From: Sulfitobacter sp. W027
Lineage (GTDB): Bacteria > Pseudomonadota > Alphaproteobacteria > Rhodobacterales > Rhodobacteraceae
Direction of reading: 5' to 3'
Assembly (NCBI RefSeq): GCF_025143985.1
Contig: NZ_CP083565.1
Coordinates: 130,714 to 194,713 of the forward strand
DNA: 64,000 nucleotides
Shown here: positions 9,458 to 59,386 of the stretch, in pieces
Layout of the letters: each line of letters begins with the position of its first letter
Position numbering within the stretch: the stretch's first letter is position 1
Made by a program: the position numbers and the translations under genes
The notes under the pieces: generated by a model
What the model saw: only the letters and a program-made list of their open reading frames with translations
What the model was told of the DNA's origin: nothing
The model's database searches: none

Positions 9458-9477
9458 TCGAAGCCTAACCCTCAACC

Positions 9478-9512
9478 AAAAGGGCCGCGCAATCCCTCGC
9501 GCGGCCCTTTTT
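9478..9512. terminator. Bidirectional rho-independent terminator
   Basis: A 12-bp perfect stem (AAAGGGCCGCGC pairing with GCGCGGCCCTTT) has an 8-base loop. Five T follow on the plus strand, and the A-run on the left gives a shorter T-run on the minus strand. It lies between convergent yceI and the b561-YceI gene and can serve both. Confidence 0.9.
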
Positions 9513-9531
9513 CGTCTCGATGGCGCAGAGC

Positions 9532-10713
9532 CTATTCCGTCTTGGTCGCCACCAGTTCAATCTGGACCTCTACGGAAAACCCGACAGAGCTTTCGTCCGG
9601 ATAGGCCGCCCCCATGCCGAAATCACGACGGTCCAGACCCGTGCCACCAAAAACCGTGGCCGTGCCCCCTGTCACCTCGAGATCGAAGTCGAGCGTGACG
9701 GGAACACGTTGCCCGACCAATGTCAGGGAGCCTGATGCGCGGTGGGTCGGTCCGTCGATTTGCACGATGTCGCCCTGAAACACCGCGGTGTCATGTACGG
9801 CGACATCGAAGAACTCGGGGCCTTTCGCCTGGTCCGTCACGGACCCCAGTGTGAGGGAGGTCGTATCGATCACCGTCTTCACGGTGCCTGTTCCGGTTAC
9901 TTCATCATAGTCGATGTCGGCCTGCCAATTGGCAAAGCCGCCGGTGACCTCGGCCCCCATCTGCGTGATCGTGAACGACAGGCTGCCTTCCTGCACGACC
10001 CAGCCTTCGGTCTGCTGGGCTGGCAAATGTGACGCGCCTTCCACGATGTGAGCGGGGGCGAACACGGTCAGGGCGCCGCCGATTGCAAAGGTCCAGATCC
10101 CTATTGCGGCGAAAACGGAAGCCCCCTTGCCGGGGTGAGTGGCCGCCTTGCCGGCAGCCCGTCCGTTCCACATGCGGGCCAAGGTGCCGTCGCGGTCGAT
10201 CAACGCGTGTTTGACTGCGCCGCCAATATGCGCCGCGACCATGGCCGCCAATACGATCCCCGCAATCCAGTGAACATTGGCTGCCGCACCGGCGAGGCGC
10301 TCCGACTTCGGAATGAACGGCAGGCTTTGGGGGAAGGGCCACCAGATTGGCGCAAAGCCCACTTCGGCCGAATGGATCACCCAGCCGGAGAGGGGCAGCA
10401 CGAAGATGGCGGCGTAAAGCACCCAATGCGCCGTCTCGGCGGCAAAGGTTTCAAGGCGCCGTTCGGGATGGAGCGGCACGGGACGCTGTTGCGAGATTGC
10501 CCAGATCACCCGCAACATAGCCAGAGCCAAGACCGTCATGCCGATCGTCTTATGTGCCGAATACAACAGCTGAAGGAAGCCCACGGTATCGCCACTGCGC
10601 GGCGTGAACTTCCCGATCAATCCAAGCGCTATGTCTGCCAGCACTAGGAGCGCGATGCTCCAATGGAAAAAGCGGGAGACGCGCCCGTAGCTGGCGGTTG
10701 TGTTTGATATCAT
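9532..10713 (-). CDS. Cytochrome b561-YceI fusion protein
   Basis: 393 residues. The N-terminal ~180 form a four-helix cytochrome b561 with haem-ligand histidines in FFHWSIALLV, YSAHKTIGM, ETAHWVLYAA and AAHIGGAVKH. A fifth helix near 205-225 leads to a periplasmic YceI domain (residues ~230-393: SFTITQMGAEVTGGF, RDFGMGAAYP). The architecture couples a membrane dihaem cytochrome to a lipid or quinone-binding domain, suggesting quinol or isoprenoid redox chemistry (inference). It lies tail to tail with free-standing yceI. The start is ATG at 10713; fragments of old transposases lie directly upstream. Confidence 0.9.
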   Translation of the reverse strand: MISNTTASYGRVSRFFHWSIALLVLADIALGLIGKFTPRSGDTVGFLQLLYSAHKTIGMTVLALAMLRVIWAISQQRPVPLHPERRLETFAAETAHWVLYAAIFVLPLSGWVIHSAEVGFAPIWWPFPQSLPFIPKSERLAGAAANVHWIAGIVLAAMVAAHIGGAVKHALIDRDGTLARMWNGRAAGKAATHPGKGASVFAAIGIWTFAIGGALTVFAPAHIVEGASHLPAQQTEGWVVQEGSLSFTITQMGAEVTGGFANWQADIDYDEVTGTGTVKTVIDTTSLTLGSVTDQAKGPEFFDVAVHDTAVFQGDIVQIDGPTHRASGSLTLVGQRVPVTLDFDLEVTGGTATVFGGTGLDRRDFGMGAAYPDESSVGFSVEVQIELVATKTE

Positions 10714-10816
10714 TGGGTCCTCACATGTCTCGCTGGGTTCTCAATATATCGATTTCGCCGCCCGCACATTCCGTTGTTTCCACACAACCAATGTGCGCAG
10801 AAGGTTGGGACACGGT

Positions 10817-10888
10817 TTCTCGAACATTCCGGCCGCCTTTTTCAAAGTTGCGGATCGCCAAGTAGATCAACTTCGTGGCAGCGTCTTC
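10817..10888 (-). pseudogene. IS256-family transposase remnant (C-terminal part)
   Basis: The minus strand encodes EDAATKLIYLAIRNFEKGGR followed by NVRE, the conserved stretch near the C-terminus of IS256-type DDE transposases. Only ~24 codons remain. It joins directly to an IS5-type fragment at 10888, in a different reading frame, so the junction is a recombination or deletion point. Confidence 0.65.
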
Positions 10889-11217
10889 GGCGCGACAAAT
10901 TGGAGAAATCAGGCACCGCAATGGCCACTCCCAGCAGCGTCACGATTGAGCGCATCAAGCCTTGGGTCTGCCGCAGCGGTTGCTTGAAGACCATGTCCAG
11001 TGTCAGGCAAAGCTCGATTGCCAGATCAGAGTAATATGGCTGACCACCAGGGGGTGTTCGACGTGGAGCCGCCCAAAGGTCAAGCGCGTCCTCGCTGATC
11101 AAGACCGTCAGGATAACCGCGCCGCCGCAGGCCCTCGTTGTATTCAGACCAGTTGGTCACCGGCTGCTTTTGCTTCGGAATTTTGCTACGCCGATCAGCG
11201 TTGAACTTGGGCGGCAT
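10889..11217 (-). pseudogene. IS5-family transposase N-terminal fragment with frameshift
   Basis: From the ATG at 11217 the minus strand reads MPPKFNADRRSKIPKQKQPV then TNWSEYNEGLRRRG. A frameshift near 11110 follows, after which the other frame continues ISEDALDLWAAPRRTPPGGQ, YYSDLAIELCLTL, QTQGLMRSI and VPDFSNLSRR. This is the N-terminal third of an IS5-type transposase. The rest is lost at the junction with the IS256 remnant. A C-terminal IS5-type piece at 15321-15657 could be its other half. Confidence 0.75.
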
Positions 11218-12070
11218 ATACAGCGTCCTCAAAAGAATAAGCCGTGACCGATATCAGCCGAGTGGGGCACCGTGCAACAAGGCCCCTGTTTAATGCGGGA
11301 CGGGCAGTAGATGCGCAAAGCTAAATTTCTTCCCTGGGCCACTTGCCGTTACGCAAGGGAAACCTAATTACGATCAATGGCGTCGAGCGAGCATAATAAT
11401 CCATCCCGCAAGCGTAATGAGCGCGAGCGTAAGACAGACAGCGGACAGGCAAGCGAGCGCTTGGCGTTTGCAATGGCATTGGCGCTTCTCTGGTTGCTTG
11501 GCCTTTGGTTCGTTTTAACGCATTGAACGACCCAAACATACAACTCTAGCTGAAACGATTGAGCACGTGAGACGGTAGTGTCGCAAAATTTCCGGTTCCG
11601 CGGTGGACCCGAATATGCCACCATTGTCAGTGAGTTGGTGAAAGGTTGTTGACGTGATTGAGTTTAACAGGCTGCTGAAGAAGTTGGCCTTGAAGGACGT
11701 TGTTCAAGCTAAGTCAGCATTCCTTAGCTCGAACTATCAATTTTAGCTCAGCCTTCGCAGTGAGGCTCTGCTTAGGTTGCGCGGAGAACAGACGACGTCG
11801 AAGCCCGTGGCGGTCTGACCCTATAAAGGATGGTGGCCCAGGGGCCCAGCATCAAAGCCAACGCCTCCAATCGGATGCGAACCGACCGCCAGGCACCCGC
11901 AATGTTGTCAACCTCGCATGACAGTTCGCGTTCGATCACCACCTTGCCCCTACTTTGGCTAAAGGCCGCCACATTTAACATAAGTTAGCTTATTGGATTT
12001 CGAGTGATGCCGGCGGGCGCGCGCTACCCTCAACTGAGATTGTTATTATAAAACAGTAGTTTATGCATTA
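11218..12070. other. Non-coding debris between IS remnants
   Basis: About 850 bases with no gene I can support. A minus-strand frame at 11772-11981 looks protein-like (AGAWRSVRIRLEALALMLGP) but has no family I recognise and no start signal. The base composition and neighbours suggest decayed mobile-element sequence. Confidence 0.45.
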
Positions 12071-12250
12071 ATGCCCCTTCAAGCTCCGCCGTTGCCGTCT
12101 GAGATCATTTCCTATCCGGTTTGGTCTTATTGTCAGTTTCAGTTGAGCCCGCGCGATGTCGAGGATCTACTTGCGTCGCGCGACATCGTCGTGAGCTACG
12201 ATACTATCCGGAAGTGGGCTGAAAAATTTGGTGCAAAGCGTGCTGCTTAA
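12071..12250 (+). pseudogene. IS6-family transposase N-terminal remnant
   Basis: A 59-residue frame beginning at ATG 12071 contains SYPVWSYCQFQLSPRDVEDL, LASRDIVVSYDTIRKW and AEKFG. This is the start of IS6-type transposases, where an aromatic F/L-S-x-RDVEDLLA...VSYxTIRxW block precedes the DDE domain. It stops at 12248 before the catalytic core, so it is not functional. Confidence 0.75.
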
Positions 12251-12301
12251 CCCCAGATGCCTTAGACAGCCAACGTGATCGGGCCAAGAGCTGATTGGAA
12301 C

Positions 12302-12561
12302 GACTCAGGCAATCTCCAAGCGCTTTATGGGTTTCTGTTCGGTGCGCCTTTTACCGAGACCTTAGGAGTGCCTATCCCGATTGAGCTGATTGTGGTCCCC
12401 TTCATGGCAGCCAATCGGGAACTTGCCTGGCTCGTAGCAGGCGCGTAGTCCCGTTGGGCTTCTTGCTCGTCTCCTTCGTGGGCTACACAGCGGGGGCTGC
12501 TGGGCACTTTCTTGTCGACTATTTAGCCCGACCACAGCAGCCTGCTTCGGCGTCAGAGTGA
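12302..12561 (+). pseudogene. Frameshifted VTT/YqaA-like membrane protein fragment
   Basis: One frame reads LYGFLFGAPFTETLGVPIPI then ELIVVPFMAANRELAWLVAG and hits TAG. The next frame continues VPLGFLLVSFVGYTAGAAGH and FLVDYLARP to a stop at 12559. The combined pattern (E-x-L-x-x-PIP...P-x-x-x-A-x-x-x-x-A-W...GY-x-x-G) resembles the VTT/SNARE-associated YqaA family of inner-membrane proteins. There is at least one frameshift and no clear start. The family call is tentative. Confidence 0.45.
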
Positions 12562-47754: not shown

Positions 47755-48189
47755 GTGATTTTTAAACACAAAAACAGAGCAGCAGCAGTCGCAGCCGACC
47801 TTGCCTATTCACCCGACGAAATTAACGCCGGGTTTGAATTCGCAGACCGCAAGAGCCGCAGAGTCAATCCACCCGGAAATTGGGATAGTGCCGGACGTTT
47901 TTATGCGGAAGAACGCAGCAGTTCCGTCGAAAACTGCTGCGCCCCGAGCCGAAATTTTCCATTTTCGGAGATGAAAACTGCGCGGACGGCAGCACACTGT
48001 GCAGAAATAGCGGGGGTGGAGTCTGTCACGCATGTGCGCCGCATAGCCTTGGCCCTTGAAAAGTGCATTGACGGTGTATCAGAGCCAGCTCTGCGCAAAC
48101 TGCTTACCCCGGGGGTTCAGAAACGAAAAGCAAATCGTTACCCACCCGAGGAACAGCACGGCAGTCGCACAAGCCCAGATTTCACTTGA
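47755..48189 (+). CDS. Hypothetical protein
   Basis: 144 residues from a GTG with GGAG 6 bases upstream. The first half is Ala-rich and charged (KNRAAAVAADLAYSPDEINA); a Cys-containing middle (SSVENCCAPSRNFPFSEMKT) leads to a helical segment (VRRIALALEKCIDGVSEPAL) and a basic tail. I do not recognise it. A convergent frame overlaps its end. Its ribosome-binding site and helical pattern favour a real gene. Confidence 0.4.
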   Translation: MIFKHKNRAAAVAADLAYSPDEINAGFEFADRKSRRVNPPGNWDSAGRFYAEERSSSVENCCAPSRNFPFSEMKTARTAAHCAEIAGVESVTHVRRIALALEKCIDGVSEPALRKLLTPGVQKRKANRYPPEEQHGSRTSPDFT

Positions 48190-48601
48190 GAACCGTATTT
48201 GACTGCGCGATGCAAAGCCGGGCACCAACAGGAAGCTGTCGTGCCCGGTCACGTAGTTAAAGAACGGATAGGAAGCGTTCACGTATTTGGGCGACTGGAG
48301 CCGAATGTAACTCACCGTGACTGCCCCCCCCCCTGACCGGCTTGGTCAAGCAGATCAAATGCAAGGCTTCGAGCTCAAAGGAATCAATACGGATAAGTCG
48401 CGATCTTCTGGAAACGCTATACGCGCGGGCGGATCGAGACACCTCATGCATTCCAGGACGGTTTCCCGGTTACTGCCCCCACCGTACCACCCTTACAATT
48501 CGTCGTCATCTTCCCCTAAAAAATATGGCTAGATTAGATGGCGCTTTCCAATGTTGAGTTGAACACAGCAGAAGACTAGGAGATTTGACGCCAGCCCAGA
48601 C
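48190..48601. other. Intergenic, no supported gene
   Basis: About 410 bases with a run of nine C at 48326. Short frames on both strands lack motifs. The minus-strand frame 48079-48315 has one hydrophobic stretch but is discussed as rejected. Confidence 0.45.
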
Positions 48602-49195
48602 TCACTTGTCAGTATAGAGATCAAGCGGAGATTGCGGAAAGCGGACCATGCCGCCTGGTGCTGTATCGAGCCTAGTAAATCCGTGTCGATTATAGAAGGC
48701 CTCGAGCTCACTCATGGCAAGGCCTTCTTCGCCAAACGGCTCGTGGTAAAGCTCAATACTCAGATCAGTTTCATCAACGGCCTCAACTAAGGCTCGCAGA
48801 ATTTTGTGGGCCATTCCCTTGCCGCGATACTGAGGCGCGACCCAAATTCCGCCGAGGACGAACCGTTTATTTTTCAGCGCGTGCTCAATATAGGCCACAT
48901 TGTCCTGTTCATTGCGGTAATAAGTTCGCACTGCGGTATCACCCGCGGCACCCTGTAATCCGGGAACATCGCGGATCCTGATGAGGACCCGATCGTATTT
49001 CTGGCGCGCGCGGAGCTGTGAATGCGCGTAGTATTTCTCAAGCTCCGCAGTCAACTCTGGGTGCCGAGTTGCACAATAATCGCGTAGCCCGTGTTGCAGC
49101 GCGACAGCAACAAAAGCACGGAGTTCGCGATTTAGCCTGTTAACCTCAGCTTTGAGTGTCTCAACAGTTTCCGGTGTGGCCATCGCCTCTGCCAT
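48602..49195 (-). CDS. GNAT-family N-acetyltransferase (paralogue 2)
   Basis: 197 residues. It shares nearly the whole layout of the protein at 7071-7694: HELR/RELRAFVAVALQHGLRD, RHPELTAELEKYYAHSQLRA, TYYRNEQDNVAYIEHALKNK, the acetyl-CoA loop GGIWVAPQYRGKGMAHKILR and the C-terminal YNRHGFTRLDTAPGGMVRFP. The pair likely arose by duplication or separate transfer of one family. The substrate is unknown. It stands alone, with no close neighbour in its orientation. Confidence 0.8.
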   Translation of the reverse strand: MAEAMATPETVETLKAEVNRLNRELRAFVAVALQHGLRDYCATRHPELTAELEKYYAHSQLRARQKYDRVLIRIRDVPGLQGAAGDTAVRTYYRNEQDNVAYIEHALKNKRFVLGGIWVAPQYRGKGMAHKILRALVEAVDETDLSIELYHEPFGEEGLAMSELEAFYNRHGFTRLDTAPGGMVRFPQSPLDLYTDK

Positions 49196-49652
49196 TCCTT
49201 TCGCTTTTCCCTCATACAGGTTTTTCGCTTAGACGCTTGAGATAGCCTGCTGCGGCAGATTGGCTACCAGTTCTTTTGAGCGTAGGGGGGCGAACTGTAG
49301 CTCGAATGATAACCTTGAAGAACATAGCATCTACTGAGCTATCAACCGACCTACGACAATTGTTTACAGCCGGTTTGGCAACAAAAGCATATAGTGAATA
49401 AATCCACACCACGCACAGTATCCATTTTCTGATCCTCCGTAGCCAATATGCAATATCGTTACCCCTTAGGCCTCCTAATTTTGTCATACCGATAGCTAAA
49501 ATTGATATAATTCACAGGCCCAATGTATTATTCCTCGTGCTTTCATCATTCTTTAAACAGCTTCATGTATATCTGTTTGTGAGAGTTCCAGCAAAGAATA
49601 CCGCAATTACTGGATACTTCTCATAAAAATTTTATTATGGAGAAAATTTTAT
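49196..49652. other. AT-rich intergenic region
   Basis: About 455 bases between the GNAT gene and the island gene at 49653. From 49490 the sequence becomes clearly more AT-rich than the surroundings (runs such as AATTGATATAATTC), like recently acquired DNA. It should contain divergent promoters. No gene is supported. Confidence 0.5.
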
Positions 49653-50273
49653 ATGACGACCTATCCAATTATAACAAGCCGTAAAGCCGACAATAAAATA
49701 CTCAAACTCGAATTTGAAATCGAGCTGGGAGAAAAAGTACTGGCAGCGGCCCAAGAAAAAAAGCGCTGGCTGGATAATTGGCAACCCGAACATGTTGCGA
49801 ACCTCCAGGCTGAATTAGAACAGAAAAAACTCGAAAAGCATCAGATCAACACGGCCGGTAGAGCGGAAATTGCGGCAGTTCTGAACCATGTGAACGGAAA
49901 AGCCCGGGCCTGGACGATCTGCCCCGATAGGCTCATTAGCATCGCTCATGACTGCGAGAAATTGCTCGATACTCGCGGTATCAGGGTCAAGAATCGAGCT
50001 GGAACTTTGGTGCGATTTCGCCCGGCGGGAAAGTCTTCTGCACGTTCACAGATTGGCAGAAGCATCACGACCTATGTTGTTCTGCGCCGCGTGCGCGACG
50101 GCTGGCGATTGGTGCACGCTCAACGTGATTATTGCTTCATAAATCAACGGGCGTTTAGAGAAGTCATTGTGCGGCCCGCGGCACATGAAGATATAATCCG
50201 CCATGCTACACGGGGCTTCAGAGGCTGGGATGAGCCTCCAACAGACGCCCCATCCGAGCGCCCGACGGCATGA
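49653..50273 (+). CDS. Hypothetical protein with N-terminal coiled coil
   Basis: 206 residues preceded by GGAG about 12 bases upstream. Residues ~10-70 are a charged helix (KILKLEFEIELGEKVLAAAQ, ELEQKKLEKHQI). The second half is basic and beta-rich (RAWTICPDRLISIAHDCEKL, SITTYVVLRRVRDGWRLVHA). The last residues are TA then stop. I do not recognise a family. It converges on the FtsH-like gene at 50467 and sits at the left edge of the island. Its A-rich 5' end differs in base use from the neighbours. Confidence 0.6.
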   Translation: MTTYPIITSRKADNKILKLEFEIELGEKVLAAAQEKKRWLDNWQPEHVANLQAELEQKKLEKHQINTAGRAEIAAVLNHVNGKARAWTICPDRLISIAHDCEKLLDTRGIRVKNRAGTLVRFRPAGKSSARSQIGRSITTYVVLRRVRDGWRLVHAQRDYCFINQRAFREVIVRPAAHEDIIRHATRGFRGWDEPPTDAPSERPTA

Positions 50274-50466
50274 GTGTTATGCCTACCTACATCAGAAGAG
50301 GCACGGTCGAAAAGCACCCCTCTCGTTGCGTTGGATCGGCCACCTTCGGGGCGCTCTCAAGGATCAGCCGGAGACGCGCCAAGTATCGGGTTGCACAGAG
50401 GAGACCCATAAATTGGTGGACGGCAGGAGCCCAAAGGGCTCCCGCCAGCCAGTCGGAAAGTTGCAA

Positions 50467-52743
50467 CTACGAGGTGTTATGCGGGCATTCCGGCTGGAGT
50501 GTCGTGCCTACGGAACGCTGCGAAGGTAATAAATCTTTGGAAAGTTCATCCAAATCGCTTCTAGTCAACTCTCTTCTGCAAATCAGCTCAGCTGCGATCC
50601 GCTTCAGACCATTTAGGTGTTCCTTAAGCAAACTGCTGACAGCCAGTTCTGCATCCTGCAACGTCGCCTGGATCCGCCGTTGCGTCCTGATGGGGAGCCT
50701 GTCAAAATCCACTTGGCTCGCATCCCGCCAGATCAAGTCAGCGCCGCCGAACGACCAGTTCAAGTCCATCTCCAGCGCAAGCCTAGTTGCCTGCGCAAGG
50801 TCGCTAGCCGCCCCAAGCCCGGCTCCATTGGCCGCCTCGCCCAACACCAAAGTCTCGGCCGTGCGGCCTGCAAGACACATTTTGAGTTTGGCCTCTGCCA
50901 ACCGAGGAGTGATCGTAGGCAGAGGAGCTGGCTCAACATGTCCACCCCGAGCCGTCATCCAGGCCCTCACCGGGGTCGGCAAGGGCGACAGCAATGCCGC
51001 GAGAAGATGCCCTGCTTCGTGGATGGCAACACGGTGCATCAGGGCCGGTTCGAGAGGTGGCGCGACTTGGTCTACGGCCGCTTCCAGATGTCGCTGGAGC
51101 AACCGCGTCCGATCCGTGCGCGCTCTGCCAAGCGCATCACGCGCAATTGCCTCGGCGGTGGCCCCGGGCTCGCCGAGGAGGCGGTCTGCAATTGGGCCCA
51201 AATTCAAATCAGAGCCATTCTCGACCTTCAATTTTGCGACGAGAATTGCAAGAAGTCCGGCGCGGTTTGGCAGTGGGATCTCCAGCTTCACATCGAACCT
51301 TCCACTGCGAATAACAGCCGGATCCACAATGTCGAGATGATTGGTCGCACCTACCAGGATCAGGCCCTCGACGTCTGCTGCACGATTGATTTGTTCCAGC
51401 AATCCATTGGTCACCCCGCGCAAGTACCCGTCGCTCTGCCCGCCAGAAGAGCGATCAGAAAAACTATCGATTTCATCGATAAACAGCACCGCAGGTGCTT
51501 GTTGAGCTGCCCGATCGAAGGCCGCTGAAAGGGCTGCCAGCATATCGCCCTGATGCCCGTGTCGCTGGCAGTCGGAATATGATGTTGCAATAATCGGAAT
51601 CCCGGCAGAACCAGCGAATGCATGCGCGAGCATCGTCTTTCCGGTGCCGGGGGGGCCATGGAACAACGCGCTCCGCGTCACTTCAGACCACGCCGCCCTG
51701 CCCGCGCGCCAATCTTTCAGGTCTGCCAGCATTTGCTTTAAAGGTCTTACTGCACCCCCAAGTCCTTGCACGTCATTCAGAGTAACTGATGGCCCTTCCC
51801 TTTGCGCTGCTGTAATCTGTGCGAGCCGATCCGCAACCCGCAGCGTGGTGGCTTCTTCAAAAGCCGCAGCAATTTGCACCGGCTCTAACCGCCGGAATGC
51901 TTCTGCATCTGGCAGCCGTTTCAGCAACTCATCATCAGCGAGCTGCCGGGTATTGCTATGTGTGCAACGCAGTGTCTCCACAATTACTGCGGGAGAAATT
52001 CCCCCCCATCGAAATTCCTGGTGAACAAGGCTTTCTTGCTCTGCTGACAGCTGGTTTTTCGCGCTACAGATCGCCAAAACGGGGACATGCCGCATGAGAC
52101 TTTTATCGATCGCTTGCCGGAATTTCGGAACCGATCGTTTTTGCTCCGACGCCACGATGCTTGAGCCGCTTTCGTAAACATGGTGGGCCGCCTGCTGAGC
52201 CGATGGACAGGGCGGCCTCCTTTGCCAGTGCGTCAGAACTTCGGAAGCAATGCTTTCAAGCTGTGACCGCATCTTGTCCGATGGACAGAGGATTAAGGTA
52301 AGGCCCCCCGGTCGAAAAATCTGTGCCAGCGCCTGTTCGTCTTTGATCATGGCGCACATCAAAATTGTGACGAGAACGGCGGCAGGCTGAGGTTTGATCT
52401 CCCAGAGCGGTGAAACCTCCAAGTCAGTACATGCCCATGGGTCTTCCCCGTCTGCCAAATACCGCTCGATTTCAGCAGTGGTCATGCTTTCTGCCGCAGG
52501 GGGCCCCTCGAAACCACCCGGGTTGCGACCCACATCGTCTTGAAAAATTTGGCGCACGGGCGGGTGCAATAGATCGACGGATGCTTCTCCGTCAGCTTCC
52601 TCGTCACCATATTCATAAAAACGTTCGGCGTTTGATCTCCACTCAGACAGAGCGCTCTCGCGCAGCGCGGTGAGAGTCGAGCGCGCCAGTTCGGCAGAAA
52701 ATTTGCTCGGGAACAGTGGCGATTGGCTTAAAACTTCAGTCAT
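50467..52743 (-). CDS. Soluble FtsH-like AAA+ ATPase/M41 metalloprotease
   Basis: 758 residues. An N-terminal ~320-residue part is unlike FtsH and has no membrane helix. The AAA+ module follows: Walker A GPPGTGKT at 363-370, Walker B LFIDEID at 419-425 and arginine-finger block RSGRFD at 479-484. The protease domain has the zinc motif HEAGH at 575-579, AGRTAE at 625-630 and the third-ligand region ASDLAQAT at 646-653. Classical FtsH is membrane anchored with the fingers SRH; this one should be cytoplasmic. It is last in an operon with a nuclease-like gene, 15 bases downstream. Its substrate is unknown. Confidence 0.85.
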   Translation of the reverse strand: MTEVLSQSPLFPSKFSAELARSTLTALRESALSEWRSNAERFYEYGDEEADGEASVDLLHPPVRQIFQDDVGRNPGGFEGPPAAESMTTAEIERYLADGEDPWACTDLEVSPLWEIKPQPAAVLVTILMCAMIKDEQALAQIFRPGGLTLILCPSDKMRSQLESIASEVLTHWQRRPPCPSAQQAAHHVYESGSSIVASEQKRSVPKFRQAIDKSLMRHVPVLAICSAKNQLSAEQESLVHQEFRWGGISPAVIVETLRCTHSNTRQLADDELLKRLPDAEAFRRLEPVQIAAAFEEATTLRVADRLAQITAAQREGPSVTLNDVQGLGGAVRPLKQMLADLKDWRAGRAAWSEVTRSALFHGPPGTGKTMLAHAFAGSAGIPIIATSYSDCQRHGHQGDMLAALSAAFDRAAQQAPAVLFIDEIDSFSDRSSGGQSDGYLRGVTNGLLEQINRAADVEGLILVGATNHLDIVDPAVIRSGRFDVKLEIPLPNRAGLLAILVAKLKVENGSDLNLGPIADRLLGEPGATAEAIARDALGRARTDRTRLLQRHLEAAVDQVAPPLEPALMHRVAIHEAGHLLAALLSPLPTPVRAWMTARGGHVEPAPLPTITPRLAEAKLKMCLAGRTAETLVLGEAANGAGLGAASDLAQATRLALEMDLNWSFGGADLIWRDASQVDFDRLPIRTQRRIQATLQDAELAVSSLLKEHLNGLKRIAAELICRRELTRSDLDELSKDLLPSQRSVGTTLQPECPHNTS

Positions 52744-52758
52744 ATTCTGCGCCCCCTC

Positions 52759-53316
52759 TCAATAACAAAACGGCATTGGGCCTGTGGGAGCTGGGGCCAT
52801 CTGGTCTACTCCAACTTCGCTCAAAGCAGCTTCAAAACTCGCGCCCGGCCGTCGCCTCAACTTCTCAACTTCCTCGACACCAATGGTCTGCGATCGTCGG
52901 CGATCCGCGGTAAACTTCACCACGTTTTCAGATAAGCAGACGAGCGCTAACAGATCATAGTCATTCTGCGAATACCGGCGCACACCAGCTGGCGATCGAT
53001 GGTATCCATGAGAAATGTTGAAATTGAAGCAGTTCGCGCGCGGTCTTATCGCTGTTTTGACCTGAACACGAAGGACCCCTTGCGTGAGGAATACGACGCA
53101 ATCGAAAGGCGCATGCTCTGCAACGTTTACACTTTGCAGACCGAGGCTCAGAAGGACGCTTTCAACGAGCAGCTCGCCTGCGCGGCCAAACTGCTTGCCA
53201 TGATAGCGCAGGGTCTCTGCATCGAGTTTTGGAAACTGAAGCAGGTCGTGATGGGGCTCGGACGAAGGGGCGTGAAACACCTCCTCGAACCCAACCAATG
53301 TCGGTTGATGTGTCAT
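52759..53316 (-). CDS. PD-(D/E)XK-type nuclease-like protein
   Basis: 185 residues from the ATG at 53316 with AAGGA upstream. The predicted active site is E48 (GRAGELLVESVLLSLGL), D72 (HAPFDCVVF) and Q85-V-K87 (GVLRVQVKTA), the order E...D...QxK seen in PDDEXK nucleases. A strand LLAL at 122-125 follows (NDYDLLALVCL). Such folds cleave DNA or RNA as restriction or repair enzymes. It sits between a small acidic gene and the AAA+ protease. Catalytic activity is inferred from the motif only. Confidence 0.7.
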   Translation of the reverse strand: MTHQPTLVGFEEVFHAPSSEPHHDLLQFPKLDAETLRYHGKQFGRAGELLVESVLLSLGLQSVNVAEHAPFDCVVFLTQGVLRVQVKTAIRPRANCFNFNISHGYHRSPAGVRRYSQNDYDLLALVCLSENVVKFTADRRRSQTIGVEEVEKLRRRPGASFEAALSEVGVDQMAPAPTGPMPFCY

Positions 53317-53402
53317 TTTTTTATCCTTTAGTGGCAATAGATCACCCGCCCGGCCGCCGCTGCGGCGCCGGTCAGGGACTTAAACTTGAGAAGGGTGAAG
53401 GC

Positions 53403-53885
53403 TTATGCCTCTGGCGTGAGACCGAGATCGGCTTCCGGCGGCTCTTGGCCCTCCACCTCTGCGCGGTCGGCCATCTGCTCCAAGCTGAGACCTGCTTCCT
53501 CAAGCATAAAATGAATGCGAGGCTCCGCAGGTTTCTGCATAATTTTTGCGAGTTTAATGCGTGCCGCCTCAAGTTCGGCTGGCGATCCGGCGCGAATGGC
53601 GCGGTGGATCACCCCCGCGGCGCGACACAGCAGACGATCGTCGGGCCTGCATGTCCGGAAGGTCGCCAGCAGGGTGGCATCTTCTGCCAAGCCTGCCCAG
53701 ACCGCCTCCGCCTCGCTGCGCCAATCGAACCCCTCCGGCCAGTCAGAATCGTCAAAAAAGACTTCTTCATCGAGCGTCGACTGCAAGTTACTGACCAAGC
53801 GCTCGAACATGAGAGAGTGTGGGGAAGTCGCAAAACTTTCGCCTGTCGCTCGTTCAATCGGATCGTTAAAATAGTCTTTAGGCAT
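53403..53885 (-). CDS. Acidic hypothetical protein, first gene of the nuclease-protease operon
   Basis: 160 residues with AGGAG 8 bases before the ATG. It is strongly acidic (STLDEEVFFDDSDWPEGF, EVEGQEPPEADLGL) with Leu- and Ala-rich helices (AEAVWAGLAEDATLLATFR, AELEAARIKLAKIMQKPAEP). No family is recognised. As an acidic leader gene beside a nuclease and an AAA+ protease it could be an adaptor, inhibitor or substrate of the protease (inference). Confidence 0.65.
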   Translation of the reverse strand: MPKDYFNDPIERATGESFATSPHSLMFERLVSNLQSTLDEEVFFDDSDWPEGFDWRSEAEAVWAGLAEDATLLATFRTCRPDDRLLCRAAGVIHRAIRAGSPAELEAARIKLAKIMQKPAEPRIHFMLEEAGLSLEQMADRAEVEGQEPPEADLGLTPEA

Positions 53886-53954
53886 AATGATCTCCTAATT
53901 AGATCGTTGTGATTAGAGCGGGGTGAGGGCTGCAACCCTTGCCTCGCTTGCTTT

Positions 53955-53983
53955 ATTATGATACCATTATATCAATAAGTCAA
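53955..53983 (-). promoter_or_regulatory. Promoter of the nuclease-protease operon with an embedded dyad operator
   Basis: On the minus strand TTGACT (-35, at 53978-53983) and CATAAT (-10, at 53955-53960) are spaced exactly 17 bases. TGATA-N6-TATCA at 53959-53974 lies in the spacer and touches the -10 box. The divergent ribbon-helix-helix gene 36 bases away is the obvious repressor candidate. Confidence 0.65.
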
Positions 53984-54009
53984 CTCTTAATTCGAGGAAC
54001 TATTGCAAA

Positions 54010-54186
54010 ATGGTAAAAAAAGGCCGCCCTCCTGTCGATTCCAGTGGAATTATGCTCAGGCTTCATAGCGATATCATAAAAAAAATAGACGCCTTTAGGA
54101 AAGAAGAGGACGATTTGCCAACCCGCCCCGAAATGATCCGCCGAATGATAAAAGATTGGATCGAAGATAAAGAAAATATGAAATAG
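54010..54186 (+). CDS. Ribbon-helix-helix transcriptional regulator
   Basis: 58 residues: MVKKGRPPVDSSGIMLRLHS then DIIKKIDAFRKEEDDLPTRP and EMIRRMIKDWIEDKENMK. The beta strand (GIMLRLHS) and two helices with the P-T-R-P-E-x-I-R-R turn match CopG/Arc-type RHH repressors. It is divergent from the acidic-nuclease-protease operon and probably represses it through the dyad at 53959. GAGGA lies about 11 bases upstream. A-rich codons mark it as foreign. Confidence 0.75.
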   Translation: MVKKGRPPVDSSGIMLRLHSDIIKKIDAFRKEEDDLPTRPEMIRRMIKDWIEDKENMK

Positions 54187-54314
54187 AAATATGATTACGC
54201 AAAAATATGAAAACATTTGACGCAGGTCTCTCCGCACCCAAATCCTGATTAAAAATCTAGAACACCGTGGTAAGTAGGCAGCATGCAAGTCTCCTACTGG
54301 GATGCTGCCTCCGA
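54187..54314. other. Intergenic between RHH gene and integrase end
   Basis: 128 bases, convergent. Possible hairpin TACCACGG... repeats are not convincing and no clear terminator is seen. A core recombination site might lie here or beside the integrase, but I cannot identify one. Confidence 0.35.
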
Positions 54315-55718
54315 TTAATTTGCCCCCAAGTCCGATCCCAAATTATAAAAGGGCCCCGGCTTTCGACCGCGGATGGGACTGCTTGCGGTCACCCGGAGGA
54401 TTTGCTGACTTCGGACGGATCGCCGTTTTCGGCTACGATTTGACCTGCCGTAATGTCTCAGCGTCCGTGTACTTTGCTGGCCGAGACACGCAGCGATGGT
54501 TTCATCCGAAATCTTTTCATCCGACTTCATGTCTGCTGCGAGCGCATGTCGGAAAACATACGGCGTCACATTTTTCCTTTGCTTTGGAAAAGCGCGCGCG
54601 CCGAGTCTCGTCATCAGCTTACCAAGACTTACGGTCAGCCGACGCTCCTGTTCTGCAACTGAGAGCCAAATCCCGGAAGGTGAACGGGGAGTTGTCTTCT
54701 CGCTGATCTGCAGACGCGCGCTGCCAGACCGCGCAATATGGTCTCGCAGCCAGATCGCCTCCGGGCTCTGGCAGATCATCTCGATGCTGCGTAGTGCTTG
54801 CCCCTTTCCTTCTATCTCCGGCGTCAGTTCCCGAGCCGTCTTGGCGCCCTTGATCGCGAATGTCAGAGTGCTTTCGCCATTCGCCTCTCCGAGCTCAACG
54901 GTAACCCCAAGCTTTTCCGAAAGTTCAACAGGTCGGCAGCCGGTCAGCATCAAGGTCGCAATAATCACGCAGCGCTCTGCGCTAACATAGTCATCTGTCA
55001 GAGCCGTTTTCCAAAAATGGTCACGCCAACTGTAGGTCCCACTCTTTTTGCGCTTGTTGTCTTCATGCCGGTTAAGCGCCCGCAGAGCGACGATTCCAGG
55101 TGCTGGCTTTTTCTTCGGATTTGCTTCTTCTTTGGGCTGCCTGCTGCGTAGCGCGCGGTGCTCTGGGTCGGGGGGCATAGCAATTAGAAAGGCTACTGCC
55201 TCCGCCAATCGATTGCGCTCTGTTTCGCTGAGTGTTTCGCCCGCCGCCCTCATCCGCGCCATGGCTTCCGCATCGACCGTTCCGTTGATCTGCTTTATCA
55301 ATGATGAGCGGGCGGGTCCCGCCTTCGTAAGCGTGAGGACCTCTTTCCAAAAGACGGGCGCGTGCTCAGCAATCACTTGCCCGGCCATGCGAACAAGAGC
55401 GGATCTGCTGGCTTGCCGTGTATTGACGCTTGCCCATCCCTGGGTGCGGTCTTTCTTCAAAAAAGCTTCAAAGGGATCATTATTCCGGTTGGAGCGGGCG
55501 AGGGCTGCCACGCGCTGTTCATATTTCTGCCAGGTGCCCGACGCGACCAAAGCTTCCGGCGTATAGAGCAGGTCGGCCTCCCGGGCATGGGTATAGGCAA
55601 TCAAACTGTTGGCGAAAAAGGCCTCGACCGCCATAGCCTCATCAAGCAATTGATCGGCCGCGGCAGTCCGTTTGTGAAGGTTGTCATAAGAAGAACCTAG
55701 AGGGAGCTGTTCAGTCAT
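54315..55718 (-). CDS. Tyrosine recombinase (integrase) family protein
   Basis: 467 residues. A long N-terminal helical part leads to the catalytic domain: Arg in LMLTGCRPVELSEKLGVTV, box II as TPYVFRHALAADM and the C-terminal Tyr in GQQSTRTLRHYGRSN. The first His of HxxR is Tyr here and the LGH histidine is Gln, so the active site is atypical. A basic tail of ~45 residues (NRSRKRRSVRSQQILRV) follows. It starts 4 bases inside the upstream gene (ATGA overlap), last gene of a three-gene operon, and likely mobilises the island. Confidence 0.7.
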   Translation of the reverse strand: MTEQLPLGSSYDNLHKRTAAADQLLDEAMAVEAFFANSLIAYTHAREADLLYTPEALVASGTWQKYEQRVAALARSNRNNDPFEAFLKKDRTQGWASVNTRQASRSALVRMAGQVIAEHAPVFWKEVLTLTKAGPARSSLIKQINGTVDAEAMARMRAAGETLSETERNRLAEAVAFLIAMPPDPEHRALRSRQPKEEANPKKKPAPGIVALRALNRHEDNKRKKSGTYSWRDHFWKTALTDDYVSAERCVIIATLMLTGCRPVELSEKLGVTVELGEANGESTLTFAIKGAKTARELTPEIEGKGQALRSIEMICQSPEAIWLRDHIARSGSARLQISEKTTPRSPSGIWLSVAEQERRLTVSLGKLMTRLGARAFPKQRKNVTPYVFRHALAADMKSDEKISDETIAACLGQQSTRTLRHYGRSNRSRKRRSVRSQQILRVTASSPIRGRKPGPFYNLGSDLGAN

Positions 55719-55954
55719 GACAAGACCTCTGAACGGTCTAAGGTTGCATCCCTTATTCGCGGATCAGACCACTCTATTCCCTTAATCGAAGTGGCGCCCT
55801 CACAATAGCTTTGGGCATTCCGTGCATAGTGTTCACTCTTAAACGCAGAGTGAGGATCGTTAATGTAACTCAAGATCGGATCACTGAACCCGACGTGGTG
55901 GCTCGTCCGGAAAGGCGATAAAAGGCTCGAAGAAATGCAAAAGTAAACTGCCAT
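55715..55954 (-). CDS. Small hypothetical protein, middle gene of the recombinase operon
   Basis: 79 residues from the ATG at 55954, which follows the stop of the upstream gene by one base; its own stop overlaps the recombinase start by 4 (ATGA). The earlier in-frame ATG at 56095 lies inside the upstream gene. The protein has a hydrophobic start (MAVYFCISSSLLSPFRTSHH) and an acidic tail. No family is recognised. The exact overlaps are strong evidence that it is translated. Confidence 0.6.
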   Translation of the reverse strand: MAVYFCISSSLLSPFRTSHHVGFSDPILSYINDPHSAFKSEHYARNAQSYCEGATSIKGIEWSDPRIRDATLDRSEVLS

Positions 55955-55955
55955 G

Positions 55956-56405
55956 TCAGCAACCCTCCTGACGGCGTATCTCCAGGACGCATACCCATGC
56001 GGGGCCGCCCTCCGACGCAAAGGGCAATACACTGAGGCGGAAGATAGCCACCTGAAAGTCAATGCGGCCGACAAAATGAGGGACCTTCCCGTCATTGGGA
56101 TGGAAAGGCCTTAACTCCATCCTGAGCGGCTTTAATAGAAAAGAAAGGCCGTGAATTGCGGCCGTGATCCGGTTAGAATCACGGGAGGATCGGTGCGGTG
56201 TCAGGCAGCCAGAAATTCTGATCTCGAGCTTCCGCCTGAGGCCATCAAGCAAAAGGTCACATATATACGCTTCGCCTACGCTGCTATCTCTTGCTTTCAA
56301 AACGCCGGCATAGGCATCACGCCGCAAGCCCTGCAAAATCAGAGCTGCGCTTTCTCGTTTCAGCGCACCAAAGGGCGGTTCATTGGTTATTAATAAGGTG
56401 TCCAT
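55956..56405 (-). CDS. Hypothetical protein, first gene of the recombinase operon
   Basis: 149 residues starting at ATG 56405, with GGAG inside a hairpin 11 bases upstream. Helical start (FGALKRESAALILQGLRRDA), then basic and hydrophobic segments (RRKLEIRISGCLTPHRSSRD, GRIDFQVAIFRLSVLPFASE). I do not recognise a family. It may be an excision or recombination accessory factor given its coupling to a recombinase. Confidence 0.6.
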   Translation of the reverse strand: MDTLLITNEPPFGALKRESAALILQGLRRDAYAGVLKARDSSVGEAYICDLLLDGLRRKLEIRISGCLTPHRSSRDSNRITAAIHGLSFLLKPLRMELRPFHPNDGKVPHFVGRIDFQVAIFRLSVLPFASEGGPAWVCVLEIRRQEGC

Positions 56406-56409
56406 TGTT

Positions 56410-56435
56410 CAATCTCCATCCAATCTTGGAGATTG
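56410..56435. promoter_or_regulatory. Hairpin burying the ribosome-binding site of the recombinase operon
   Basis: CAATCTCCA pairs with TGGAGATTG over 9 bp with an 8-base loop. On the minus strand the 3' arm holds the GGAG Shine-Dalgarno sequence, followed by four bases and the ATG at 56405. Folding should block initiation of the first gene. Confidence 0.6.
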
Positions 56436-56478
56436 TGCAACGTGGTTAAGAACGAGTGAATGAAAGCGAGCCCGCCTC

Positions 56479-57561
56479 TCAGAAAAATTCAGTTAAAAAA
56501 CGCTTGTTGGCGCGGCCATCGTTGAGCTGAACAATGTTGTGTGGCTCAGATGAAAACCAAGCAAAAGAGCCCCAAGCCAACGCCGGCATCGTTTTCCTAA
56601 AACCGGGTGCCTCCCGGTCTTGGAACGCTGTAACAAAAGCCACTTGCGAGCGGTTGAAACCTGCTGCGTCCGTCAGTGCATACAGGGCGGTTTGACGCCG
56701 TTCCGAAATCGGCCCATCTGTCGCAACGACTTCAATGAAGACGATAAGCGGATCGGTGGGTCCAAGATCTACGAGGATGAGGTCGGGTAAATCTTTGTCC
56801 GCGGCGATTTGCAGCCCAATTGAGGCGGCCAGACTATCGTCACGTTGAACTACCTTGTTGCCGCTCTCGCTTAGCCACAACACGGCCGGTGTCTGCAGGA
56901 AGTTCTGGGCAAAGTCTTCGACTACAGACTTTGAGATAATGGAACTAGGGCCAGGCGCTAGCCTGCGTGTCTCACCGTTGGGAAAGGTTACCATCACACC
57001 AGATTTTCCTGCTACAGTTCCCGCTTGCATGAGCGACACACGTGCCAACGCACTTCTAGAAAGGTGTCTGGCTTGATATGCTGAAATTTCCGCGGACAAA
57101 GTTTCATCTGTTAGCTTTGGATCGAATAACGCGGCAAAGTCTGAGAGGAGTGCATAGCGAGGCTTACTCGATGTCGTGGGCAAATCATCTCTCGCGATCA
57201 CTGCACCGATGTTTACTAATCCCTCCCGCAAGGTTTCATCACGTATCGGCTCGCGTGTGTTGTCGGCGTACCAGGGGTTGCCGGGCACCACGTAGCTCTT
57301 CTTGCGGATATCTTCGCCGTAGGCAACTCGCTCGCTATCACTTACCTTCGCCGCCTGGTCGTCGGTCATCCGATATACATGGATGGGGCCTAGATAGCGG
57401 TCTAGCCCCTGCACTGCTCCTATGTAGATCATAGTGAAGACCGTACTCGCGGAGAGTTGACGCGTGCAGTAGATGCGATTGGGGATGCCTTCTGGAAAGA
57501 TAAGTTGAAGTCGTTCCTCGACCTGTTCACGCGTTACGTATGGGGGGAGGTCACTCGTCAA
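56479..57561 (-). CDS. BsuBI/PstI-family type II restriction endonuclease
   Basis: 360 residues from a TTG at 57561, which has a perfect AGGAGG 7 bases upstream and lies one base past the methyltransferase stop. The C-terminal ~130 residues match the BsuBI/PstI family: DLPDLILVDLGPTDPLIVFI, EVVATDGPISERRQTALYAL, QVAFVTAFQDREAPGF and AWGSFAWFSSEPHNIVQL. That family cuts CTGCAG-type sites, so a similar target is likely. It is paired with the adenine methyltransferase just upstream. Confidence 0.85.
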   Translation of the reverse strand: MTSDLPPYVTREQVEERLQLIFPEGIPNRIYCTRQLSASTVFTMIYIGAVQGLDRYLGPIHVYRMTDDQAAKVSDSERVAYGEDIRKKSYVVPGNPWYADNTREPIRDETLREGLVNIGAVIARDDLPTTSSKPRYALLSDFAALFDPKLTDETLSAEISAYQARHLSRSALARVSLMQAGTVAGKSGVMVTFPNGETRRLAPGPSSIISKSVVEDFAQNFLQTPAVLWLSESGNKVVQRDDSLAASIGLQIAADKDLPDLILVDLGPTDPLIVFIEVVATDGPISERRQTALYALTDAAGFNRSQVAFVTAFQDREAPGFRKTMPALAWGSFAWFSSEPHNIVQLNDGRANKRFLTEFF

Positions 57562-57562
57562 A

Positions 57563-59386
57563 CTATGCCTCCTGATAGAGGCGCAAGCACTCACTTTCGA
57601 TCTCTGAGCGGTCGGCCCTCGCGCCAATCAGCTTCCGCAGCCCTTCAAGGGCATGTGGCGAAGGAAGTGGAAGTGCCTCCAACTCATATGCAGAAACAGC
57701 AACACTTCCGCTAACACAGCGAAACGCCTGATCTGCGGCAGCGCTATTTAGAAACACCGAAAGCACTTCGGCGCTTACAGGCGGGGTCGCCCCCAGTGGC
57801 TTCAGCATGTTCAGGTGGTTCTCGATAACTACCGCACCATGCTTTTCAATGAAGGTCGATGGCAACGCCGCTGCGATCAAACGCCGATGCTGCTCCTTCG
57901 CTGTTGTGCGCTGCAGTAGAACACATTGTTGCTTCGAAATCAGCCATTGGTCTCGATCACGAATTTCGAACCATGGCTGATGATTGCGCTTGGTCGCTCG
58001 CCACTCGAATCGCCCATCCGTTTGAACAGCTTCTGCCCATATGAGGGGCAAACGGTTCTTTGCTTTGCGACTGTGTAGCTGATCTTTAAATCGGTTCCAT
58101 ACGAGCGGCCCAGTGCTTACCGTGTAGCCCCAGTCAACCAAATGATGCTTGCAGGCTTGCAGTCGCTCTACCGTGGTGGTTTGCATGATCGTTCGTGGCA
58201 GTATCCAAGGCGTAGACGGGTCGGCGGGCAAAGGTAGCGACGTTAGTGGGACCACTTTCAAACTTGCGTCACTCGCAATATGCAGCTCCTTCACTTGAGC
58301 TACGGTTGGGCCACCCCCACGACGATAGGTAGCTAACAGGGTCTCCTGAAGCACATCGTCGAAAACGCCCTTACGCGCAGCGACGAAGTCGAAATGTTGT
58401 GGGGGCGCTTCGCTTCCTAAAAGAGCACGGAGGTTCTTGAAATATTCCCCTGCGAGAAAACTGGTGGGCGTCACAAAAGCGATCACACCGCCAATGCGAG
58501 TATGCCGAACTGCGATGTCAGTGAACACTCCATAGAGATTGGCATGTCCGAACAATCCCCTTTTAAACTTGTCGCGCAAGTCAGGAGACAAACGGCTGCG
58601 GCCGTAGGGCGGGTTGCCAATAACTAGATCGAAACGATCTCTTGGGGGATCCTTTTGAAGGCTATCACAAACCGTCACTAGGTGTGGTGTTTTCTTCCCT
58701 GCTATAGCGGAAAAGGGTAGCAAAACTACATCGAGTGCAACTTGAGCGAGCCATGCACCAAATGGGTCTAATTCATACCCGCGCAGCCGGTTGGAAATGC
58801 TCTCGATTAAGATGCGCGGACTGCATTCGGACAGCTGCGCGATGATATGCTTTGCTATTGGGGCAAGAAAGGCGCCGCCACCACATGCAGGATCAAGCAC
58901 ACGGCAAGTCGCCCAATCGACACCCGTTTCCTCTGATAGCTGAATAAGCCGTTCTGTGAGGACCGGGGGTGTATAAAACATCCCATGTAAAGAGCGATAG
59001 GATGGAGGTAGTAAAGACGTATAGGTGAGGCCGATTTGATAAGCCGCAATTTCAGGCTCTAAATGTGCAGCCAACGCACCCATCGATTCCGCAATGCTCG
59101 AGATCGGTGCGTCAAGGCTTCCACTTACGGGAAGCTTCTGTGCCCGACGCAGAACCAGCGACACCGTGTTGTGTTTGCATGCCGCGGACCACCAGCTTTG
59201 AACCAGCTCGCGGCCAACTGAGTGAGCAAAAGCAAAACGATCGTCTGTTGGCATGCCTTGCGCGATCGCACGAAGCATAACGCGTGCGTTTTGTTGTTTA
59301 ACGATGATTTCGTTTTGATCAGTACCGTCGATACCAACGTTTTCGCGCTGATTGAACTCGGTGGTCCGATGTCGCCCTGCTCTCAT
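57563..59386 (-). CDS. Adenine-specific DNA methyltransferase of the BsuBI/PstI-type system
   Basis: 607 residues. Motif X-like MFYTPPVLTERLIQL, motif I VLDPACGGGAFLAPIAKHII and motif IV LVIGNPPYGRSRLSPDLRDK are the N6-adenine methyltransferase core; target recognition lies in the C-terminal half (GYTVSTGPLVWNRFKDQLHS, LVW...ENHLNMLKP). It protects the host sequence from the linked endonuclease. It starts 4 bases inside the upstream small gene (ATGA overlap). Confidence 0.9.
   Translation of the reverse strand: MRAGRHRTTEFNQRENVGIDGTDQNEIIVKQQNARVMLRAIAQGMPTDDRFAFAHSVGRELVQSWWSAACKHNTVSLVLRRAQKLPVSGSLDAPISSIAESMGALAAHLEPEIAAYQIGLTYTSLLPPSYRSLHGMFYTPPVLTERLIQLSEETGVDWATCRVLDPACGGGAFLAPIAKHIIAQLSECSPRILIESISNRLRGYELDPFGAWLAQVALDVVLLPFSAIAGKKTPHLVTVCDSLQKDPPRDRFDLVIGNPPYGRSRLSPDLRDKFKRGLFGHANLYGVFTDIAVRHTRIGGVIAFVTPTSFLAGEYFKNLRALLGSEAPPQHFDFVAARKGVFDDVLQETLLATYRRGGGPTVAQVKELHIASDASLKVVPLTSLPLPADPSTPWILPRTIMQTTTVERLQACKHHLVDWGYTVSTGPLVWNRFKDQLHSRKAKNRLPLIWAEAVQTDGRFEWRATKRNHQPWFEIRDRDQWLISKQQCVLLQRTTAKEQHRRLIAAALPSTFIEKHGAVVIENHLNMLKPLGATPPVSAEVLSVFLNSAAADQAFRCVSGSVAVSAYELEALPLPSPHALEGLRKLIGARADRSEIESECLRLYQEA

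Follow-up and report, generated by a model that had tools for sequence, protein, structure and literature searches.

A nuclease and FtsH-like protease gene set with a candidate SymR-like antisense RNA, a putative mobile module in Sulfitobacter sp. W027 and relatives

Gene content and distribution

What do a nuclease and a soluble relative of the FtsH protease do together in one small operon? This question was raised by a stretch of 64,000 nucleotides from Sulfitobacter sp. W027, referred to as the window, which lies on contig C2 of the 4.15-Mb genome. In a preliminary description, a leftward operon of three genes and a divergent gene for a ribbon-helix-helix (RHH) protein of 58 aa were predicted at 50467-54186, and the set was not recognized as a described defence system. 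All four genes were open at these places, and PADLOC named no such system. Three features had been overlooked. They are a candidate antisense RNA at 53880-53952 (+), an AAA domain in the N-terminal part of the protease that is likely degenerate, and another copy of the set, on contig C4. Judged from its sequence, the nuclease and protease set with its small protein, RHH protein, and antisense RNA appears to be a mobile module of marine bacteria. We give about an even chance to the reading that it is a mobile conflict module, which has an exchangeable nuclease effector, is multiply silenced, and carries its own protease.

The module was compared at 55 loci, i.e., the window, 13 loci reached via plasmids or named genome contigs (L005-L017), 40 loci of the same family (L048-L087), and one of another family in the same class (L092). 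The protease or a part of it was found at 54 loci (not at L009), the nuclease at 46, the small protein and the RHH gene at 36 each, and a match to the antisense RNA at 42. All five components were present at 29 loci. The same genes recur in the same order over many genera, which goes beyond chance. The second full set of the own genome (L048, on C4) encodes a protease 79% identical to that of the window, and close relatives of the set sit on Sulfitobacter plasmids.

For the family search, 394 genomes of 393 genera were used with at most two candidates scored per genome, so that the counts are lower bounds. The protease was found at 41 places in 33 of these genomes at 349 bits or more, which are the window and L048-L087. 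Three further protease fragments scored 275-283 bits, and FtsH-like proteins about 270 bits or less; most family genomes have a match of this FtsH level. At the 41 loci, found via the protease alone, the nuclease lay just upstream in 32 and the RNA was matched in 30. In the protein searches, 39 nuclease relatives were recognized among 339 candidates and 56 small-protein relatives among 324, and the profile scan of genome contigs with the nuclease gave three loci. A profile of the protease N-terminal domain, searched in a sample of 385 genomes of the class, matched two of the 384 other genomes besides the own one, one of them strongly (G656, 1.2e-29; G750, 3.3e-9); no module gene was found by profile at the G750 locus (L093). 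The distribution thus counted appears sporadic and mobile.

A phage-borne gene was considered and rejected, as four matches to the AAA domain, at 33-34% identity and in unannotated records, were all that the phage collection yielded. Four viral contigs carry distant PDDEXK relatives (28-34% identity). In L092, genes of the nuclease, the protease, and a serine recombinase were placed at 6897-11630, and a MarR-like gene (143 aa, by eye) was seen upstream. In L077, a protease remnant at about 10545-12306 lies beside an apparent CRISPR array, visible in translation as a repeated SPPHGGVDRN-like peptide.

Exchange of the nuclease

The second gene of the operon (52759-53316, -) encodes 185 aa from its ATG. 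The protein matched PDDEXK_5 (PF11645) at 26.4 bits against a cut-off of 26.1, and the nuclease of L009 reached 40.7 bits. The nuclease-type residues named in the preliminary description held up, since E48, D72, Q85, and K87 were identical in all 24 aligned homologues. No sequence match was found in PDB. The protein is predicted to be a PDDEXK-type nuclease.

The nuclease gene is located just upstream of the protease, on the same strand, at 45 of the 54 protease loci, and it is not always of the same type. PDDEXK_5 was found at 18, a GIY-YIG-like type at 25, and a CoiA-like type at two. The distance to the protease was 232 nt or less in 43 of the 45 cases, the gene of L059 being cut by a contig edge to a 60-aa end. 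Of the CoiA-like genes, that of L068 overlaps the protease and that of L071 is 528 nt away. Nine protease loci had no nuclease, two of which (L076 and L086) start at a contig edge. On a tree of 50 proteases with 43 labelled rows, the nuclease type switches at least seven times, and the well-supported branches alone force at least three changes of the GIY-YIG label. L056 and L072 make a separate pair on this tree, and L084, L085, and L087 a group of shorter relatives. Within the genus Sulfitobacter, 6 of 62 genomes matched at E<=1e-100, i.e., the own genome, one fragment, and four others; the proteases of these four are 32-35% identical and stand with a GIY-YIG-like gene. Both main types are present inside the genus of the window.

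The GIY-YIG-like protein has cysteine clusters of the zinc-binding type and a C-terminal GIY-YIG-like domain. At E<=0.05, T5orf172 was matched weakly by 8 and MUG113 by 6 of 22 proteins (best E 1.6e-4), and members in a separate scan score below the Pfam cut-offs. K175, G177, R185, E216, and H220 are invariant in the 22, and RefSeq names the nuclease GIY-YIG at four plasmid loci. No useful PDB match was obtained. The CoiA-like assignment is weaker than the GIY-YIG-like one, with two sequences, CoiA_nuc at E 0.11-0.12, and DUF7830 at best 21.2 against 27.5 bits. The replacement of the nuclease by GIY-YIG-like and CoiA-like types supports the nuclease as the effector, and the swap pattern is consistent with what an exchangeable effector would look like.

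Protease

The last gene of the operon (50467-52743, -) encodes 758 aa. The preliminary description had called it a soluble FtsH-like AAA+ protease with a HEAGH motif. In agreement with this, Pfam AAA (6.8e-31) and Peptidase_M41 (8.8e-10) were found, and the best Foldseek matches of the AF2 model (pLDDT 83.5, pTM 0.75) were FtsH structures. The highest 19-residue Kyte-Doolittle mean was 1.43, so that by hydropathy no clear membrane segment was recognized; the same scan found none in the nuclease or the small protein. The FtsH equivalog model TIGR01241 gave 158.7 bits against a cut-off of 600. The protein is predicted to be a soluble FtsH relative.

Structure prediction had also been proposed for the N-terminal part, and it gave a likely degenerate AAA domain at residues about 118-315 (51799-52392, -). 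The active AAA domain follows at residues 360-491 (51271-51666, -) and the M41 domain, with HEAGH, at residues 570-732 (50548-51036, -). In 84 aligned homologues, G363, G366, G368, and K369 of the P-loop, E424 of the Walker B region, and H575, E576, G578, and H579 of HEAGH were invariant, and D423 of the Walker B region and D648 were conserved in at least 90%. D648 is presumably the third zinc ligand, the role of zinc being taken from FtsH. The whole protease looks like a p97-like tandem AAA protein joined to an M41 protease, the first of its AAA domains being degenerate and the second intact.

Housekeeping FtsH proteases are quality-control enzymes, and the FtsH-type core is intact here. The set might accordingly be read as a stress-type protein quality-control operon, where the nuclease is inactive and its association old but incidental. 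This is very improbable, because the catalytic residues of the nuclease are kept, the nuclease is replaced by another nuclease and not lost, and the set is sporadic and mobile. In addition, a separate FtsH-like gene is present on contig C1 of the own genome, and the FtsH-level match was found in most family genomes.

Small protein and RHH regulator

The first gene of the operon (53403-53885, -) encodes 160 aa. The protein is acidic, as described before, with a calculated pI of 4.48. No Pfam family was found above cut-off, including AbrB. The AF2 model (pLDDT 78.4) consists of helices only, i.e., a helical bundle, and gave no PDB match at E<=0.001 (best E 0.42). An iterated HMM joined family members at 36 of the 55 loci, and they are mostly acidic, with a median pI of 4.82 and a range of 4.24-9.07 (n=36, some start codons being uncertain). 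In L049-L051, a gene of 156-203 aa replaces the small gene, and in L078 one of 228 aa; these are outside the profile at E<=0.01. The profile did not join L052 or L079 either. Second small-like genes were seen at three loci. Those of L054 (11093-12381) and L174 (5122-6233) form a tandem with the first gene, under the antisense RNA, and that of L055 (7237-7734) stands apart and has an antisense RNA of its own. They represent duplication and divergence of the controlled protein.

The RHH gene (54010-54186, +) is divergent from the operon, and its product is of the CopG type. It matched PF01402 at 20.4 bits (E 5e-4), marginally under the cut-off of 20.5, in line with the earlier RHH assignment. 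Between it and the operon, a sigma-70-like promoter, TTGACT-17-CATAAT, was predicted for the operon at 53955-53983 (-), with 10 of 12 matches in the promoter scan. A palindrome, TGATA-N6-TATCA, sits in its spacer (53959-53974) and could be the operator of the RHH protein; it also occurs in the leaders of L005, L006, L007, L013, L015, and L048. The RHH protein is a probable repressor of the operon.

Candidate antisense RNA

A candidate antisense RNA of 73 nt with two hairpins was recognized at 53880-53952 (+) by Rfam symR, an RNA model of our own (R1), folding, and covariation. It is complementary to the leader, the Shine-Dalgarno region, and the start codon of the small gene. Its terminal hairpin (53916-53949, +) was found in the terminator scan with 14 pairs and a loop of 6, followed by a T-rich tract (tail GCTTTATTAT), and resembles an intrinsic terminator on the plus strand. 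TAAAAT at 53867-53872 was noted by eye as a possible -10 element and is absent from the list of the promoter scan. The 36 leaders placed between an RHH gene and a small gene share a hairpin, a CTAACCACAACGATC-like segment, and a ribosome site.

On the antisense strand of the window leader, Rfam symR was matched over its whole model (1-77 of 77) at 31.2 bits (E 0.00065). Among 20 leader slices of other genomes, symR was matched on the antisense strand in four, R1162-type RNA on the mRNA strand in six, and PtaRNA1 on the antisense strand in one. These make ten slices with a symR or R1162-type match, besides the one with PtaRNA1 and one with Mu-gpT-DE; the leaders of L009 and L012 had neither symR nor R1162-type matches. 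A clear sul1 RNA (RF03058, 78.5 bits) was seen upstream on the same Paracoccus plasmid as L012, at 225-280 (-). All symR, R1162, and PtaRNA1 matches stayed below their gathering scores, and the best symR match anywhere (41.7 bits, E 2.3e-5) did not reach the required 61. The RNA is not filed as SymR, because it stays below the Rfam cut-off and belongs with a different controlled protein, a nuclease, and a dedicated protease.

The hairpin folds better on the antisense than on the sense strand in 34 of 36 leaders, kinship being ignored, with means of -24.8 against -18.1 kcal/mol. G-U pairs numbered 106 on the antisense strand and 19 on the sense strand. R1 was built from 14 leaders, and matched the RNA of the window, one of its seeds, at 79.5 bits. 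Full-length matches of R1 were found at 42 of the 55 loci, 28 of them outside the seed and each of at least 28.9 bits, whereas opposite-strand matches reached 23.4 bits at most. The match lies at the operon leader in 41 cases and, in L055, at the second small-like gene beyond the protease. In the alignment of these 42 rows (A15), 19 of 19 pairs show changes on both sides and 89.6% of cells are paired, against at most 58.9% when the structure was slid; A15 was fitted to the model, and its counts lean towards the structure. In a MAFFT alignment of 14 rows with a hand-drawn structure (A12), 10 of 19 pairs changed on both sides. No pairs were obtained when the initial leader alignment (A11) was folded automatically, probably because its hairpins were misaligned.

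R1 was also searched over the 394 family genomes and gave 52 places in 31 genomes. At 25 places away from the operons already collected, an RHH gene was found in 21, the small gene by profile in 13, a GIY-YIG-like gene in nine, a protease stretch in five, and a complete operon in one (L195), which had escaped the protease-based search. L190, L193, L194, and L196 precede other genes, and L197 and L198 are without a clear gene. In the own genome, the strong matches numbered two and fell at the operon; two weak matches also appeared (E 0.075 and E 0.14), the former on the other strand of one copy. The control part of RHH protein and RNA seems portable and used by more than this operon. In L193, L194, and L196, with leaders near 5000-5140, the RHH gene and antisense RNA stand before other small genes, and in L194 the small gene is followed by genes that look prophage-like by eye.

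By sequence, the antisense RNA lies over the start of the controlled gene, which is a trait of type I toxin-antitoxin systems. Its presence makes silencing of this type a serious alternative to the earlier picture. In a system of addiction, i.e., post-segregational killing, the RNA and the RHH protein would hold a toxic operon off; after loss of the element the unstable silencers would vanish, and the protease would free the nuclease to damage the chromosome. The set sits on plasmids, often beside recombinases or relaxases. Its RNA is similar to SymR and, in the case of one locus, to PtaRNA1; Rfam types both as antitoxin. SymE is repressed by LexA, SymR, and Lon (excerpts of Kawano 2007, PMC1891008). 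However, SymR is reported as stable, not unstable, in the same excerpts (PMC1891008). Partial operons also persist, i.e., L174, L176, and L187 with the small gene and a nuclease absent or shortened, as do copies without an intact protease (L009, L016, L079, and L082), and a toxin side of three proteins would be unusual. Addiction is considered unlikely, and behind the conflict module as an explanation.

Mobility and flanking genes

Half of the copies adjoin recombinases or relaxases. At 18 of the 54 protease loci, the protease is followed on its own strand, after 354-1859 nt, by a large serine recombinase gene; a tyrosine-type recombinase was found upstream of the set at four loci and a relaxase nearby at five. 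At 27 loci none of the three was present in the stretch read, some of these stretches ending at contig edges. For a comparison with other genes of the same contigs, 150 of 175 flank open reading frames (ORFs) of 18 loci were set against 145 of 261 control ORFs. The flank set omits L050, L054, L074, and L082 as well as the CoiA-like ORF in L071, and the control set omits L110-L112, L115-L120, and five individual ORFs from further loci. Resolvase/Recombinase families were found in 7 of the 150 flank ORFs and in at most 1 of the 145 control ORFs, a bound set by the control list, which reaches single members and holds no such family. Mobility genes are enriched around the module.

These neighbours could mean that the operon serves the life cycle of a mobile element, the nuclease and protease helping transfer, integration, or copy control. 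The R1162 antisense RNA controls a plasmid gene, and R1162-type matches to the leader as well as the RHH and RNA control before other genes, in settings that by eye look prophage-like (L193, L194, and L196), would fit such a role. However, the mobility gene varies between copies, or was not seen in the stretch read, beside a constant module, so that the module looks like cargo, and swapping of the nuclease is not expected of a transfer machine. This explanation is quite improbable.

Known defence genes were also searched in the flanks, as the preliminary description had asked whether the genes co-occur beside them. PADLOC families at E<=1e-15 numbered 73 for the flanks and 38 for the controls, 25 being listed for each, and most of those listed are supported by a single member and come from Cas or reverse-transcriptase models that are related to each other. 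Among those listed, the flank matches were Cas1, Cas2, Cas4, PD-T7-1, PD-T7-5, DrmD, and generic ones, and the control matches were reverse transcriptase, CARF regulator, DrmD, and generic ones. The Cas1, Cas2, and Cas4 matches, mostly of one member per model, are probably one CRISPR-Cas locus. Placement in a defence island was rejected, since the flanks show no clear excess of PADLOC families over the controls.

Proposed function

Comparison of sequences supports likely silencing, an exchangeable effector, and a mobile setting of the module. It is reasonable to consider the following mechanism. In the resting cell, the operon would be silenced twice, once by the RHH protein bound at the promoter and again by pairing of the SymR-like antisense RNA with the ribosome-binding region of the first gene. 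When silencing fails, for which an incoming element or phage or DNA damage is our guess, the operon would be made. As an adaptor or an inhibitor, the small protein may link the nuclease with the N-terminal part of the protease, and through it the protease would govern the nuclease. Using ATP, the protease might pull one partner out or degrade it, the small protein being the simplest candidate, and the freed nuclease might cut invader or host DNA; how these final events are ordered is a guess as well.

The role of the protease is suggested by four loci (L009, L016, L079, and L082), in which the nuclease gene is open and the protease either absent or broken into two frames. It seems that the protease is not needed to restrain the nuclease, and it is more likely an activator or executor than an antitoxin. 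Assembly errors could be behind some of these losses.

Several observations weigh against the conflict module. In L013, the breakage is reversed, with the nuclease frame broken near its start and the protease open. L092 of the other family has the nuclease and protease and no RHH gene, small gene, or antisense RNA; perhaps it is a minimal core. FtsH pore loops carry an aromatic residue, which was not seen by eye in the protease. No promoter of the antisense RNA was listed by the promoter scan. The hairpin folds on the mRNA strand too (mean z -3.4, against -4.7 on the antisense strand), where the R1162-type matches also fall, and the leader hairpin may have a role in the mRNA itself. Finally, known defence genes are not clearly enriched beside the module. 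The earlier interpretation, a candidate new system in which the protease may control the nuclease, is partly supported on the whole; its suggestion that the protease degrades the acidic protein as an inhibitor is a guess.

A wider proposal can be made, to which we give somewhat less than an even chance. The tandem-AAA M41 protease would be a universal activation core, to which unrelated nucleases are exchanged via a rapidly evolving helical adaptor. The RHH protein and the covarying SymR-like RNA would silence it, and invasion or loss of the carrier would lead to ATP-driven proteolysis and nucleolytic attack, making a new class of prokaryotic conflict system. If true, it would join dedicated AAA+ proteolysis, nuclease effector exchange, and type I antisense silencing, which were not found linked in the literature searched, and would be a new way to arm or disarm a nuclease. 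SymR-like RNAs would then serve as a portable part for silencing genes other than symE, and the marine Roseobacter group and its relatives would have one more module in their conflict repertoire.

Comparison with known systems

No described system of this make-up was found in PADLOC or the open-licence literature searched. PADLOC-DB 2023 gave only AAA-domain cross-matches of the protease and none for the nuclease, small protein, or RHH protein. SymE/SymR of E. coli (RF01809) is alike in an antisense RNA of similar size with a two-hairpin plan over leader and start codon, in a transcriptional repressor as second silencer, and in the involvement of a protease, i.e., Lon (excerpts of PMC1891008). 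The symR promoter of E. coli lies inside the symE frame (PMC1891008, same excerpts). In contrast, the RNAs of the module score at most 41.7 of 61 bits, the repressor is RHH and not LexA, and the controlled gene product is predicted as all-helical and does not match AbrB, the operon continuing with a nuclease and a protease of its own. In its logic, the combination of repressor, antisense RNA, and AAA+ protease would be a close parallel to SymE.

The R1162-like plasmid antisense RNA (RF00043), matched on the mRNA strand, is alike in the leader hairpin, in the CUAA-CAC segment, and in the start region, and PtaRNA1 (RF01811) was matched at one locus on the antisense strand. However, these stay at 34.5 of 55 and 27.1 of 47 bits, respectively, and the controlled genes differ. 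The AAA+ protein of IetAS is coupled to proteolysis, a likeness to the module, and IetA profiles matched the AAA domain of the module at 84.3 bits. The NCBIfam IteA model gave 85.7 of 510 bits, whereas the module has a fused M41 domain and a nuclease. The subtilisin partner of IetAS was not turned up by PADLOC, beyond which no search by name was made. Housekeeping FtsH has the same AAA and M41 core, fold, and active site; the protease of the module differs in having no clear membrane segment and a further AAA-like domain ahead of this core, in its 158.7 of 600 bits for the equivalog model, and in a sporadic, mobile occurrence.

The 'FtsH ternary' systems of MoxR-vWA type, for which a conflict role was predicted, also have two FtsH-type AAA domains of which the first is inactive (excerpts of Kaur et al. 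2020, PMC7159879). Their partners differ from those here, i.e., a nuclease, a small helical protein, an RHH protein, and an antisense RNA. MoxR and vWA genes are not annotated in the ten plasmid loci read, which is as far as the search for them went; the gene tables of these ten have gaps.

Neighbouring genes

The window is homologous to L048 over 48112-56462 and to L013 over 49887-54212. A gene of 206 aa (49653-50273, +), convergent and behind the protease, is common to several Sulfitobacter-type copies, and no Pfam family was found for it. On the other side, a tyrosine-recombinase-like gene of 467 aa (54315-55718, -) was recognized by weak XerS and XerA matches (E 0.0087 and 0.022), its product being without a Pfam match. 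Its homologues occupy the equivalent position beside the module in L005, L008, and L048. A BsuBI/PstI-type restriction endonuclease gene and an adjoining N6 methyltransferase gene were placed beside the module at 56479-59386. The block shared with L048 stops at 56462, just short of the restriction endonuclease, and the block shared with L005 reaches 57376.

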